From: Bittarella massiliensis (ex Durand et al. 2017)
GTDB lineage: Bacteria > Bacillota > Clostridia > Oscillospirales > Ruminococcaceae
Reading direction: 5' to 3'
DNA: 64,000 nucleotides
Assembly: GCF_001486165.1 (NCBI RefSeq)
Contig: NZ_LN908977.1
Coordinates: 760,122-824,121, forward strand
The number at the start of each line of letters is the position of its first letter. Within the stretch, counting starts at the first letter, position 1. The position numbers and the translations under genes are program-made. Of the stretch, positions 22,917 through 54,478 are shown one piece after another. The notes under the pieces were generated by a model that had not been told where the DNA came from, did not search any database, and saw only the letters and a list, made by a program, of their open reading frames with translations.

Positions 22917-22990
22917 TGGAGGCGCCACCCAGAATTGAACTGGGGATAAAGGTTTTGCAGACCTCTGCCTTACCGCTTGGCTATGGCGCC
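22917..22990 (-). tRNA. tRNA-Cys(GCA), copy 1
   Basis: The minus strand gives a 74-nt cloverleaf including encoded CCA, with acceptor GGCGCCA/GGCGCC and anticodon loop CTGCAAA. It is the last gene of a Val-Asp-Phe-Gly-Cys cluster. Confidence 0.95.
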
Positions 22991-23066
22991 GTATTCACGG
23001 TTATACAAAATATCTGCATAACCGACTTTGTAAAACGGAAGGCGCTAATTTCTTAGCGCCTTTTTG
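22991..23066 (-). other. Structured 76-nt spacer between tRNA-Gly and tRNA-Cys, duplicated at 26498
   Basis: The spacer contains two inverted repeats: GGCGCTAA...TTAGCGCC and CGGTTAT...ATAACCG. The same 76-nt spacer recurs in the second cluster with only two substitutions, whereas the other inter-tRNA spacers differ. On the minus strand the first hairpin is not followed by a T-run, so it is not an obvious terminator for the tRNA transcript. On the plus strand it is followed by TTTTTG. Confidence 0.6.
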
Positions 23067-23142
23067 TGGAGCGGGTTACGAGGCTCGAACTCGCTACCTC
23101 CACCTTGGCAAGGTGGCGCTCTACCAGATGAGCTAAACCCGC
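23067..23142 (-). tRNA. tRNA-Gly(GCC), copy 1
   Basis: A 76-nt cloverleaf with encoded CCA, acceptor GCGGGTT/AACCCGC and anticodon loop TTGCCAA. Confidence 0.95.
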
Positions 23143-23148
23143 ATAATT

Positions 23149-23224
23149 TGGTGCCTCCGGGCGGAATCGAACCACCGACACGGGGATTTTCAGTCCCCTG
23201 CTCTACCGACTGAGCTACAGAGGC
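23149..23224 (-). tRNA. tRNA-Phe(GAA), copy 1
   Basis: A 76-nt cloverleaf with encoded CCA and anticodon loop CTGAAAA. The anticodon stem is GGGGA/TCCCC and the T-stem GGTGG/CCGCC, which differ from copy 2 by compensated base pairs. Confidence 0.95.
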
Positions 23225-23229
23225 CAAAC

Positions 23230-23306
23230 TGGCGACCCGGAAGGGGCTCGAACCCTCGACCTCTAGCGTGACAGGCTAGCGTTCTAACCAACTGAACTAC
23301 CGGGCC
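23230..23306 (-). tRNA. tRNA-Asp(GTC), copy 1
   Basis: A 77-nt cloverleaf with encoded CCA, acceptor GGCCCGG paired with CCGGGTC, and anticodon GTC in CTGTCAC. Confidence 0.95.
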
Positions 23307-23311
23307 ATATA

Positions 23312-23387
23312 TGGTGGGAACAACAGGGCTCGAACCTGTGACCCCCTGCTTGTAAGGCAGATGCTCTCCCAGCTGAGCTATGCTCCC
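23312..23387 (-). tRNA. tRNA-Val(TAC)
   Basis: A 76-nt cloverleaf with encoded CCA and anticodon TAC in CTTACAA. It is the first gene of the cluster and has no copy in the second one. Confidence 0.95.
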
Positions 23388-26423: not shown

Positions 26424-26497
26424 TGGAGGCGCCACCCAGAATTGAACTGGGGATAAAGGTTTTGCAGACCTCTGCCTTACCGCTTGGCTATGGCGCC
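26424..26497 (-). tRNA. tRNA-Cys(GCA), copy 2
   Basis: A 74-nt cloverleaf identical in sequence to copy 1 as far as I can see. It is the last gene of the second cluster. Confidence 0.95.
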
Positions 26498-26573
26498 ATA
26501 TTCACGGTTATACAAAATATCTGCATAACCGGCTTTGTAAAACGGAAGGCGCTAATTTCTTAGCGCCTTTTTG
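26498..26573 (-). other. Structured 76-nt spacer, second copy
   Basis: This is nearly identical to 22991-23066, with two substitutions, and retains both inverted repeats. Confidence 0.6.
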
Positions 26574-26649
26574 TGGAGCGGGTTACGAGGCTCGAACTCG
26601 CTACCTCCACCTTGGCAAGGTGGCGCTCTACCAGATGAGCTAAACCCGC
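26574..26649 (-). tRNA. tRNA-Gly(GCC), copy 2
   Basis: A 76-nt cloverleaf with encoded CCA and anticodon GCC, the same as copy 1. Confidence 0.95.
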
Positions 26650-26654
26650 GGAAA

Positions 26655-26730
<76 letters not shown>

Positions 26731-26736
26731 ACACAT

Positions 26737-26813
26737 TGGCGACCCGGAAGGGGCTCGAACCCTCGACCTCTAGCGTGACAGGCTAGCGTTCTAACCAACT
26801 GAACTACCGGGCC
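26737..26813 (-). tRNA. tRNA-Asp(GTC), copy 2
   Basis: A 77-nt cloverleaf with encoded CCA and anticodon GTC, the same as copy 1. It is the first gene of this cluster. Confidence 0.95.
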
Positions 26814-51910: not shown

Positions 51911-53548
51911 CTACCGGTTTCTCAGCTCGTTTCGCTTGATTTTGCCGCTGATGGTCTTGGGCAGTTCATCCACGAACTCCACGATCCGCGGGTACTTGTA
52001 GGGGGCGGTCTGGTGCTTGACAAAGGTCTGGATCTCCTTGACCAGCTCCTCGCTGGGGGAGTAGCCGCGGGTGAGGGTGATGGTCGCCTTGACCACCTGG
52101 CCGCGGATGGGGTCGGGGGCCCCGGTGACCGCGCACTCCAGCACCGCTGGGTGCTCCATCAGCACGCTCTCGATCTCAAAGGGGCCGATGCGGTAGCCCG
52201 AGGCCTTGATGACGTCGTCGGTCCGCCCCACATACCAGAGGTAGCCGTCCTCGTCCTGCCAGGCGATGTCCCGGGTGTGGTAGTACCCGTCGTGCCAGAT
52301 CTCGGCGGTCTTCTCCTCGTCCAGATAGTAGCCGCAGAAGAGGCCGCAGGGCTTGCCCTCCTCGGTGCGGATGCAGATTTCCCCCTCTTCGCCGGGGTCG
52401 ACGATCTCGCCGTCCTCCCCCAGCAGGGCGATCTGGTACTGGGGGTTGATCTTGCCCATGGAGCCCAGGCGGATCTCCGTCCCGGGCAGGTTGGCAATGA
52501 GCAGGCTGGTCTCGCTCTGGCCAAAACCCTCGGTGAGGTTGAGGCCGGTATACTCCTTGAACCGGTCGAACACCTCGGGGTTGAGGGCCTCCCCTGCCGT
52601 GGTCACATGCCGCAGGGAGGAGAGGTCGTAGTTTTCGATCCCCTCTTTAATAAAGAAGCGAAAGATGGTGGGGGGCGCACAGAAGGTGGTGATTTTGTAC
52701 TTTTCAATCAGGTGGAGCAGGTCTTTGGGGGCAAAGCGGATGTAGTCGTAAACAAAGATGCCCGCCTCCATGATCCACTGGCCGTAGATTTTGCCCCAGG
52801 AGGCCTTGGCCCAGCCGGTGTCCGCCACCGAGAGGTGCAGCCCGTCCGGCACCACCTGGTGCCACTCCTTGGCGGTGACGATGTGCCCCAGGGGATAGAG
52901 GTAATCGTGGAGCACCATCTTGGGCATCCCGGTGGTGCCGGAGGTGAAGAACAGCAGCATGGGGTCGCTCGCACGGTTGGGGATGCGCTCCAGCTGGTCG
53001 CTCTGCCGCTCCAGCTCCCGGTGGTAGGAGAGCCAGCCCTCCCGCTCGCCCCGGGCCAAAATCTTGGTGCGCAGGGTCGGGCACTTCTCGGCCGCGGCGT
53101 CCACCGAGGCGGCCGCCTCCCCCTCGGCGGTGCAGATGACCGCGCTCACCCCCGCCGCGTCGATGCGGTAGGCGATGTCCTTGGCCGTGAGCTGATCGGT
53201 GGCCGGGATGGCGATGGCCCCGATCTTGTGCAGGGCCAGGATGCAAAACCAGTACTCGTAGTGCCGGCGGAGGAGAAGGAGGACCGCGTCCCCCTTTTTG
53301 ATCCCCAGGGAGAGCAGCAGATTGGCCGTCTGGTTGCTGCGGCGCATCATGTCGGCAAAGGTGAAGGTCTCCTCCCAGCCGTAGTCGTCACACCAGACCA
53401 TGGCCCGCCGCTCGGGCTCCGCCAGGGCGATGCGGTCGATGATGTCGTAGCCGAAATTGAAGTCGTCCGGCGCGTGCAGCCGCACCGATTGCAGCGAGCC
53501 GTCCGCGGCCCACTCCTCCTGCAGGTAGTCCTTATAGAGTTCCAACAT
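51911..53548 (-). CDS. Medium/branched-chain acyl-CoA synthetase (MACS-like, AMP-forming)
   Basis: The enzyme adenylates a short or branched carboxylic acid and transfers it to CoA. The 545-residue protein has the AMP-binding P-loop FFTSGTTGMPKM near residue 200, the MACS-type block GWAKASWGKIYGQW, the adenylate motif TEGFGQSETS, the hinge WYVGRTDDVIKASGYRIG, and the catalytic Lys in LPKTISGKIKRNEL near residue 537. The block resembles archaeal and mammalian medium-chain acyl-CoA synthetases, including an enzyme from Methanosarcina acetivorans that prefers 2-methylbutyrate. The start ATG lies 3 nt after the XRE-cupin stop, so the two genes are coupled. Both are controlled by the T-box leader. 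Substrate preference is inferred, not shown. Confidence 0.88.
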   Translation of the reverse strand: MLELYKDYLQEEWAADGSLQSVRLHAPDDFNFGYDIIDRIALAEPERRAMVWCDDYGWEETFTFADMMRRSNQTANLLLSLGIKKGDAVLLLLRRHYEYWFCILALHKIGAIAIPATDQLTAKDIAYRIDAAGVSAVICTAEGEAAASVDAAAEKCPTLRTKILARGEREGWLSYHRELERQSDQLERIPNRASDPMLLFFTSGTTGMPKMVLHDYLYPLGHIVTAKEWHQVVPDGLHLSVADTGWAKASWGKIYGQWIMEAGIFVYDYIRFAPKDLLHLIEKYKITTFCAPPTIFRFFIKEGIENYDLSSLRHVTTAGEALNPEVFDRFKEYTGLNLTEGFGQSETSLLIANLPGTEIRLGSMGKINPQYQIALLGEDGEIVDPGEEGEICIRTEEGKPCGLFCGYYLDEEKTAEIWHDGYYHTRDIAWQDEDGYLWYVGRTDDVIKASGYRIGPFEIESVLMEHPAVLECAVTGAPDPIRGQVVKATITLTRGYSPSEELVKEIQTFVKHQTAPYKYPRIVEFVDELPKTISGKIKRNELRNR

Positions 53549-53551
53549 CGC

Positions 53552-54139
53552 CTATTCCCCCTTTTCTTCGTCTCCGCCGTGGATGACAATGGCCAAAAAG
53601 GTACAGTCCTTGCCGCCGACAGCCGCCATCCCGTGGGGGTAGGTGGAGTCGTAGTAGATGCTGTCCCCCGCCTCCAGGGTGACGGTGTGTCCGTCCACCT
53701 CCATGCGCAGGCTCCCCTCGAGGATGTAGTCAAACTCCTGCCCCTTGTGGTTGTTCATCATCATTGGCCGCTCCTCGTTGCCCTCCAGGTAGGGGGCGGT
53801 CACGTAGAGGGGCTCGCACATCTTGTTGCGAAAGAGATGGGCCTTGTGCAGGTAGGCCAGCCCCTGGCGGCGCTCCACCGGCAACCCCTTGCCCTTTCTC
53901 ACCACGGTGTAGATGTTCAGCTTGGGCCGCTCGCCGGTGAGCAGCTCGATCATGTCCACCCCAAAGACGGCGGCACATTTTTGCAAAAAGGTGATGGGGA
54001 AGTCGCTCTCGCCCCCCTCCAGGCGGATATATTCCTCCAGGGGAACGTTTACCTGGGCAGCCATCTCCTCCGCACTGATCCCCAAAATCTCCCGCATGAC
54101 GCCGATCCTCACTGCGATCTCTGCAATTTTGCTGTCCAT
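53552..54139 (-). CDS. XRE-family transcriptional regulator with C-terminal cupin domain
   Basis: The 195-residue protein has an N-terminal helix-turn-helix (about 8-65: VRIGVMREILGISAEEMAAQ then VPLEEYIRLEGGESD), then a cupin domain (about 100-190). The cupin part has NNHKGQEFDYILEGSLRME and DSIYYDSTYPHGM, the two cupin motifs with His and Glu residues. Such proteins often sense a small ligand and control the adjacent gene. It is directly upstream of the acyl-CoA ligase, and paired XRE-cupin/AMP-ligase genes are common in Clostridia. The T-box leader precedes it. An operator cannot be assigned by eye. Confidence 0.9.
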   Translation of the reverse strand: MDSKIAEIAVRIGVMREILGISAEEMAAQVNVPLEEYIRLEGGESDFPITFLQKCAAVFGVDMIELLTGERPKLNIYTVVRKGKGLPVERRQGLAYLHKAHLFRNKMCEPLYVTAPYLEGNEERPMMMNNHKGQEFDYILEGSLRMEVDGHTVTLEAGDSIYYDSTYPHGMAAVGGKDCTFLAIVIHGGDEEKGE

Positions 54140-54166: not shown

Positions 54167-54442
54167 ATAAAAAAGACCCGTCCCCATAATAGGGACGAGC
54201 CTTGTATGTACAAGTAGCCCGCGGTACCACCCAGATTGCACGATCTGTGCCGCTTTGCAGGGTTCCAACAAACCCCGGACCGGTTAACGCAGCCCACGCG
54301 GAAGAACTTACTGGCCGCCCTGGCGGTTTTCTGCCCTTCAACTCAGGAGTGACTAGCCGCTGCGCAACCTCTGCCGGACTTCCACCATCCGCCGGCTCTC
54401 TGGAAAGGCGCATTGCATCGGACTCTCTCCGTCTTTGTCATT
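54167..54442 (-). promoter_or_regulatory. T-box leader (tRNA-sensing), specifier GUC/valine proposed
   Basis: The minus-strand RNA has the full set of T-box landmarks. The stem I distal part is CCAGAGAGCCGGCGG followed by GGTGGAAGTCCGG. The T-box sequence GGGTGGTACCGCGG is present, and after it a terminator with arms GACCCGTCCC/GGGACGAGC runs into TTTTTTATTTG. The helix UGCGC/GCGCA places the specifier loop 3' side at GCGGCTAGTCACTCC. By comparison with known leaders such as those reading NNN-A followed by the helix strand, the specifier is GTC (valine). Uncharged tRNA should allow read-through into the XRE-cupin and ligase genes. The T-box call is firm; the specifier is an inference. Confidence 0.9.
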
Positions 54443-54448
54443 GCAGCC

Positions 54449-54478
54449 ATTATAGTCTCCCCGCCCGGGAGCTGTCAA
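54449..54478 (-). promoter_or_regulatory. Promoter of the T-box operon
   Basis: TTGACA (54478-54473) and TATAAT (54454-54449) are 18 bp apart on the minus strand. Initiation near 54442 is at the first nucleotides of the T-box stem I. Confidence 0.8.

Follow-up and report, generated by a model that had tools for sequence, protein, structure and literature searches.

Background

T-boxes (RF00230), Macs enzymes and reductive carboxylation are each already known singly. Allison and Peel reportedly described, in 1971, the synthesis of valine from isobutyrate via reductive carboxylation, and MbcS is thought to salvage branched acids for the priming of branched-chain fatty acids in S. aureus. Passages of one account of rumen fermentation name isobutyrate as a valine precursor and 2-methylbutyrate as an isoleucine precursor (PMC7356843), parts of a second source state that Methanobrevibacter ruminantium probably makes isoleucine from 2-methylbutyrate (PMC2812497), and parts of a third state that MacsMa, the Methanosarcina acetivorans enzyme of structure 3ETC, favours 2-methylbutyrate (PMC10455477). 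Of the matches listed in a full-text literature search, none concerns a T-box in front of an acyl-CoA ligase, although a prior report is possible; the main text of one T-box survey (PMC2494555) makes no mention of CoA, and that of another (PMC3766115) mentions neither acyl-CoA nor CoA ligase. The union of all three known elements, with a separate switch for each amino acid and an enzyme residue to match, is likewise absent among the literature matches listed.

The window analyzed here is a stretch of 64,000 nucleotides from Bittarella massiliensis (G000:C9:760122-824121, in which G000 is the organism's own genome of 2.8 Mb, 99% complete). It contains a leader that is like other RF00230 T-boxes in its Stem I, its AGAGAG/GNUG elements, its specifier followed by a purine, its T-box sequence and its antiterminator/terminator, but that stands out by its sub-gathering score and by its target, an acyl-CoA ligase, a kind of gene that the two survey texts cited above do not mention. 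This ligase shares a common AMP-forming family with MacsMa (PDB 3ETC); MacsMa and nearly all Ile-type ligases carry Gly and Thr at two positions discussed below, whereas the window ligase carries Ala247 and Ser345. MbcS (NF047394) is its best NCBIfam match, but the window ligase falls below the cut-off of 850 and stands in a T-box and XRE-cupin context. The predicted chemistry, from acid to acyl-CoA to 2-oxoacid to amino acid, is like that of the reductive carboxylation of isobutyrate to valine; the system predicted here differs in its gene set and in having a separate tRNA switch for each amino acid.

Results and discussion

A full-length T-box leader with a valine specifier

A preliminary description of this DNA, made from the letters alone, had placed a T-box leader at 54167-54442, and this placement is borne out with coordinates that are off by only a few bases (54173-54444, minus strand). 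The Infernal check that it proposed gives a match of RF00230 to 54444-54188 (-) over the full length of the model (1-219 of 219), with 82.4 bits and an E-value of 2.3e-18. The score is 10.6 bits short of the gathering score of 93, which is a curation cut-off and no structural feature, and because of this threshold a default Rfam scan omits the window T-box, which E-value mode recovers. Ten of the genome's 14 T-boxes are sub-gathering, including that of the window and the leaders of ileS, alaS, serS and thrS.

Stem I features, T-box sequence and terminator are all present, as had been claimed (RF00230 alignment and folding), and the succession of promoter-like site, Stem I, T-box sequence and terminator is the usual T-box order. 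The promoter-like site, TTGACA-18-TATAAT (54449-54478, -), has 12 of 12 consensus bases, against a shuffle mean of 0.2 such sites. Stem I, with AGAGAG and GNUG-type distal elements, occupies 54340-54444 (-) according to the RF00230 alignment, an alignment of homologues and a covariance model built in this analysis; its support comes from these models, because the folded 103-nt Stem I is no stabler than shuffles (z = 0.31). The T-box sequence GGUGGUACCGCGG (54219-54231, -), found as GGTGGTACCGCGG at 54231-54219 and identified from the sequence, RF00230 and the tRNA gene, includes UGGU, the complement of the terminal ACCA in tRNA-Val. The antiterminator region (54193-54232, -) is placed by RF00230 and is weak when folded alone (-13.3 kcal/mol, z = -1.1; 28 of 200 shuffles do as well); the intrinsic terminator hairpin (54173-54203, -) reaches -21.5 kcal/mol, where shuffles average -7.3 and none of 200 does as well.

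The specifier had been read as GUC (Val), and both the Rfam alignment and the covariance model agree, placing it at 54351-54353 (-). The rule by which it had been located, three bases and then a purine before the helix, holds here: GUC is followed by A at 54350 and then by CUCC (54346-54349, -), the 3' side of the helix closing the specifier loop, which pairs with GGAG (54427-54430) on the 5' side. Both-side changes occur in 10 of the 14 predicted Stem I pairs, including three of the four in this closing helix (28 homologues aligned). The 28 training rows for the covariance model were picked by a pattern (ATC, GTC or GTA before C[CT][CT]), with a 29th candidate excluded for an insertion that it carries; the model, which supersedes an initial regular-expression scan, is biased toward these three codons by the choice of rows, yet it read other codons in control T-boxes, and the pattern bore on the 3' side only, leaving the covarying 5' side of the closing helix unconstrained. 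Control leaders of the same genome were read as expected for tyrS (UAC), pheS (UUC), ileS (AUC), alaS (GCC), serS (UCC), thrS (ACC), an O-acetylhomoserine sulfhydrylase (AUG) and a LeuA-like gene (CUG), and the model slipped or disagreed on two, hisS (ACG) and aspS (AAC). The leader of the Neobittarella orthologue also reads GUC in the covariance model.

Among the tRNA loci examined in this genome, a gene for tRNA-Val(GAC), ending in ACCA, is found at one place; the others include tRNA-Val with UAC and CAC anticodons and tRNA-Ile(GAU). Since two models give GUC as the specifier, tRNA-Val(GAC) is the predicted ligand of the window T-box, which would bind it and respond by read-through.

Two transporter leaders of the same genome were not usable as specifier controls. 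The genome's second GUC T-box (G000:C8:592579-592823) precedes a sodium-dependent transporter (NF037979) that is possibly a valine importer, and a UGG (Trp) T-box (G000:C8:579235-579486) precedes a permease-like protein without an NCBIfam match at 1e-40. The window itself also contains a lysine riboswitch (1806-1980, -; 99.4 bits) and a block of tRNA genes (Cys, Gly, Phe, Asp) that occurs twice, at 22917-23387 and 26424-26813, about 3.5 kb apart, the first copy additionally having tRNA-Val(UAC).

The XRE-cupin gene and the ligase

Domain matches (HTH_3 and Cupin_2; AMP-binding) confirm that the next genes are an XRE-cupin regulator and an acyl-CoA ligase. The regulator has 195 amino acids (53552-54139, -), and one may speculate that it is a sensor of the acid or the acyl-CoA; its most similar copy in the family survey is in G116, at 72% identity, and it shares 98% identity with a protein of Bittarella massiliensis (ex Durand et al. 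2017). The AMP-forming ligase has 545 amino acids (51911-53548, -) and is MbcS/Macs-like: its best NCBIfam match, MbcS, scores 471.2 bits against an equivalog cut-off of 850, and the closest solved structure by sequence is 3ETC (residues 20-544, 693 bits, E-value 1.6e-207), so that the AMP-binding domains and the nearest solved homologue are both as predicted for a Macs-type enzyme.

A second XRE-cupin and ligase pair is encoded at G000:C7:322499-324714 of the same genome, behind an AUC T-box and with a ligase that is 59% identical. The link within the gene pair is looser in Neobittarella, in which an amidohydrolase-like gene, judged by eye, separates XRE-cupin from ligase (locus L016, 2148-3301).

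Pathway genes and the proposed route to valine

Neither IlvD nor IlvC was found in this genome, and each was present in all 14 control genomes. The alpha subunit of its 2-oxoacid:ferredoxin oxidoreductase passes the model for VorB (2-oxoisovalerate:ferredoxin oxidoreductase, alpha subunit) with 555 bits against a cut-off of 399, and its single Aminotran_4 protein passes the branched-chain aminotransferase (BCAT) model with 496 bits against a cut-off of 307. Because the ligase is 3ETC-like, IlvC and IlvD were not found, and VorB and BCAT are present, a route from isobutyrate through isobutyryl-CoA and 2-oxoisovalerate to valine is likely; in this synthesis by way of reductive carboxylation the initial step, activation of a branched short-chain acid, probably falls to the ligase. 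What had seemed odd in the preliminary description, a T-box followed by no tRNA synthetase or known amino-acid gene, would be explained in this way, because the ligase probably starts valine synthesis in a genome without detected IlvC or IlvD.

We propose, with a probability of about 0.77, that a T-box reading tRNA-Val(GAC) drives a ligase for the synthesis of valine from isobutyrate, and that the AUC copy does likewise for isoleucine from 2-methylbutyrate. In this model a transcriptional T-box would read uncharged tRNA-Val(GAC) via the GUC specifier; in valine shortage this tRNA would stabilize the antiterminator and let transcription proceed into the XRE-cupin gene and the ligase. The ligase would then convert its presumed substrate, isobutyrate, to isobutyryl-CoA, which the Vor enzyme, running in the reductive direction, would carboxylate to 2-oxoisovalerate, and the branched-chain aminotransferase would convert this to valine. 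The AUC-specifier copy (G000:C7:322499-324714) would follow the same scheme from 2-methylbutyrate to isoleucine. The model is built on sequence, namely T-box anatomy, specifier, tRNA gene, gene order, the lack of any IlvC/IlvD match, the presence of VorB and BCAT, and the Ile/Val pairing and Gly/Ala247 patterns described below; from these we infer tRNA binding and read-through, the direction of Vor and the substrate of each ligase.

Gene order in relatives bears on this scheme. Tandem ligases lie directly before VorB in three of them (G105, G037 and G079), at loci at which the other vor subunits and an ATPase-like gene were identified by eye. In G037 a branched-chain aminotransferase stands between the ligases and VorB, and in G105 the next gene is LeuA-like and has a Leu (CUC) T-box; the ligases of G105 and G037 carry Ile and Val T-boxes, and no T-box was detected at the G079 ligases beside VorB. 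All of these tandem ligases form one frame with an XRE-cupin-like part (six fusions); in a Pfam scan of the two from G105, the cupin is over the cut-off in both and the helix-turn-helix is below the cut-off in one.

Several other arrangements were seen at such loci. At L240, L241 and L242 a single frame of 754-797 amino acids comprises the XRE-cupin-like part and the ligase. A LeuA-like gene is followed by a long protein at L227 (1563-5840), L240 (1783-5973) and L242 (8667-12688); in L227 and L240 the long protein joins a xylose-isomerase-like TIM barrel to an AMP-forming ligase, and the L242 protein looks similar in length and place. Leu T-boxes (CUG and CUC) stand at the LeuA-like genes of L227 and L240, and the LeuA-like and fusion genes adjoin vor genes in G105 and G079.

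Specifiers across the family

A ligase search of 148 family genomes found 138 places in 94 genomes. The main set consists of the 130 loci with upstream DNA, from 90 genomes; the remaining eight, several of which are contig-end pieces, were added later. An upstream T-box was found at 51 of the 130 loci, with specifier AUC at 37, GUA at nine and GUC at five, and with no other codon; two of the eight later loci have a T-box, both GUA (Val). No T-box was detected upstream of the other 79 of the 130, and T-box control of the ligase is therefore not universal. The Neobittarella T-box was counted via L016, because the ligase locus L051 stops short of it. One candidate, L096 (GAA, E-value 0.14), was removed as spurious ahead of counting.

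In each of the 13 genomes that carry two T-box ligases, one copy is of the Ile type and the other of the Val type, a result that none of 200,000 random draws matched; G097, through a later locus, is a fourteenth such genome, with no IlvD hit and with VorB present. A full-scoring IlvD (called at 405 bits or above, the line against related dehydratases having been set from a gap in the scores) occurs in none of these 13, compared with 88 of the 143 genomes counted, and VorB over its cut-off occurs in 13 of 13, compared with 76 of 148. The Fisher tables leave aside five genomes with fragmentary IlvD hits (G052, G059, G070, G128 and G133), and the Fisher values ignore relatedness. More broadly, of the 38 genomes that have a T-box ligase, 34 have a VorB that passes the cut-off, compared with 42 of 110 others (76 of 148 overall); the four without it are G048, G084, G100 and G109, and in G084 VorB is in pieces. 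IlvD is kept in 10 of 37 Ile-T-box genomes and in one of 14 Val-T-box genomes (G114); among Ile-only genomes, 14 are without IlvD and 10 have it.

Ligase residues that follow the specifier

In the ligase alignment, residue 247 of the window ligase (codon 52808-52810, -) is Ala, within the Val-type signature GWAK. This residue presumably matches one in the acetate pocket of acetyl-CoA synthetase. Within the 130-locus set, every one of the 14 Val-type ligases has Ala at residue 247, and 34 of the 37 Ile-type ligases have Gly (the three exceptional ones having Ala or Met); at residue 345, Ser is found in 13 of 14 Val-type ligases and Thr in 37 of 37 Ile-type ones, both columns having been chosen from the alignment post hoc. 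The two later Val ligases both have Ala247 (16 of 16 Val-type in all) and differ from each other at residue 345 (one Ser, one Thr); MacsMa has GWGK and GQTET, the motifs of the Ile type. Of the 36 two-ligase genomes of the 130 set, T-box or not, 33 pair a Gly copy with an Ala copy, against a random mean of 17.1, with none of 20,000 draws as high. Independent pairs for Gly/Ala247 number two that are supported and four in all, none opposite in direction, which are too few for significance.

Leader and ligase trees

On the ligase tree the Val label requires five changes when set against all other rows, four of which well supported branches make unavoidable, and four changes when the Ile and Val rows are taken alone. 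The leader tree was built from 50 of the 51 leaders, one having been dropped for an unclear T-box core; a branch with full support sets nine Val leaders apart from the rest, and the window leader and four other Val leaders are placed among 36 Ile leaders by modestly supported branches. With the specifier masked, the best leader tree has four changes, of which well supported branches require two. A single clade of all 14 Val leaders is not rejected by the AU test (p-AU 0.257), so that repeated in-place recoding is not statistically established. On our preferred reading, which fits the best tree, the window's leader may once have read Ile and have been recoded to Val through a single-base change in the first position of the codon.

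A wider reading joins these patterns, and we rate its chances as slightly better than even: the specifier would be a readable label of the substrate, duplicated ligases would have split between Ile and Val, in-place recoding of AUC to GUN together with the Gly/Ala247 exchange would have occurred more than once, and a vor-linked supply line for Ile, Val and Leu (as in G105) would be controlled separately for each amino acid.

Alternative readings

The ligase might instead salvage branched acids that prime branched-chain fatty acids, in the manner of MbcS, with the T-box just reporting scarcity of the amino acids that supply the primers. MbcS is after all its best NCBIfam match, and the primers are these same acyl-CoAs, but we consider this explanation unlikely, given that ligase genes adjoin VorB in three genomes (and BCAT too in one), that T-box ligases are associated with the absence of IlvD, and that primer salvage does not by itself demand one Ile and one Val copy in each genome with two T-box ligases. 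It is very improbable that the pathway runs in the catabolic direction, with Vor oxidizing 2-oxoacids to acyl-CoA and the ligase freeing the acid: Vor-type enzymes are reversible, but an AMP-forming ligase is a poor energy-conserving step, the T-box induces its genes in amino-acid starvation, which is the opposite sign for breakdown, and IlvC and IlvD were not detected in this genome.

A third reading concerns the leader itself, in which the specifier could be another codon in a shifted register (UCA or AGU, both Ser) or the T-box could be degenerate. CUA does stand where GAA-type letters usually precede the specifier, and the register was built into the pattern that picked the 28 training sequences; against this, Rfam's own alignment yields the GUC register, covariation in the closing helix involves a 5' side on which the pattern set no condition, the expected codon was read for tyrS, pheS, ileS, alaS, serS, thrS, the Met-pathway gene and the LeuA-like gene (not for hisS and aspS), and the Neobittarella orthologue reads GUC too. 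We accordingly give a shifted or degenerate specifier very little credence.

Conclusion

If true, the preferred reading, in which a tRNA-Val T-box controls a ligase that begins valine synthesis from isobutyrate, would tie genes and regulatory logic to the synthesis of valine and isoleucine from isobutyrate and 2-methylbutyrate in bacteria where no classical pathway is found. It would also offer a simple test of whether a regulatory RNA can annotate enzyme specificity, with one leader codon predicting both an enzyme residue and a substrate.
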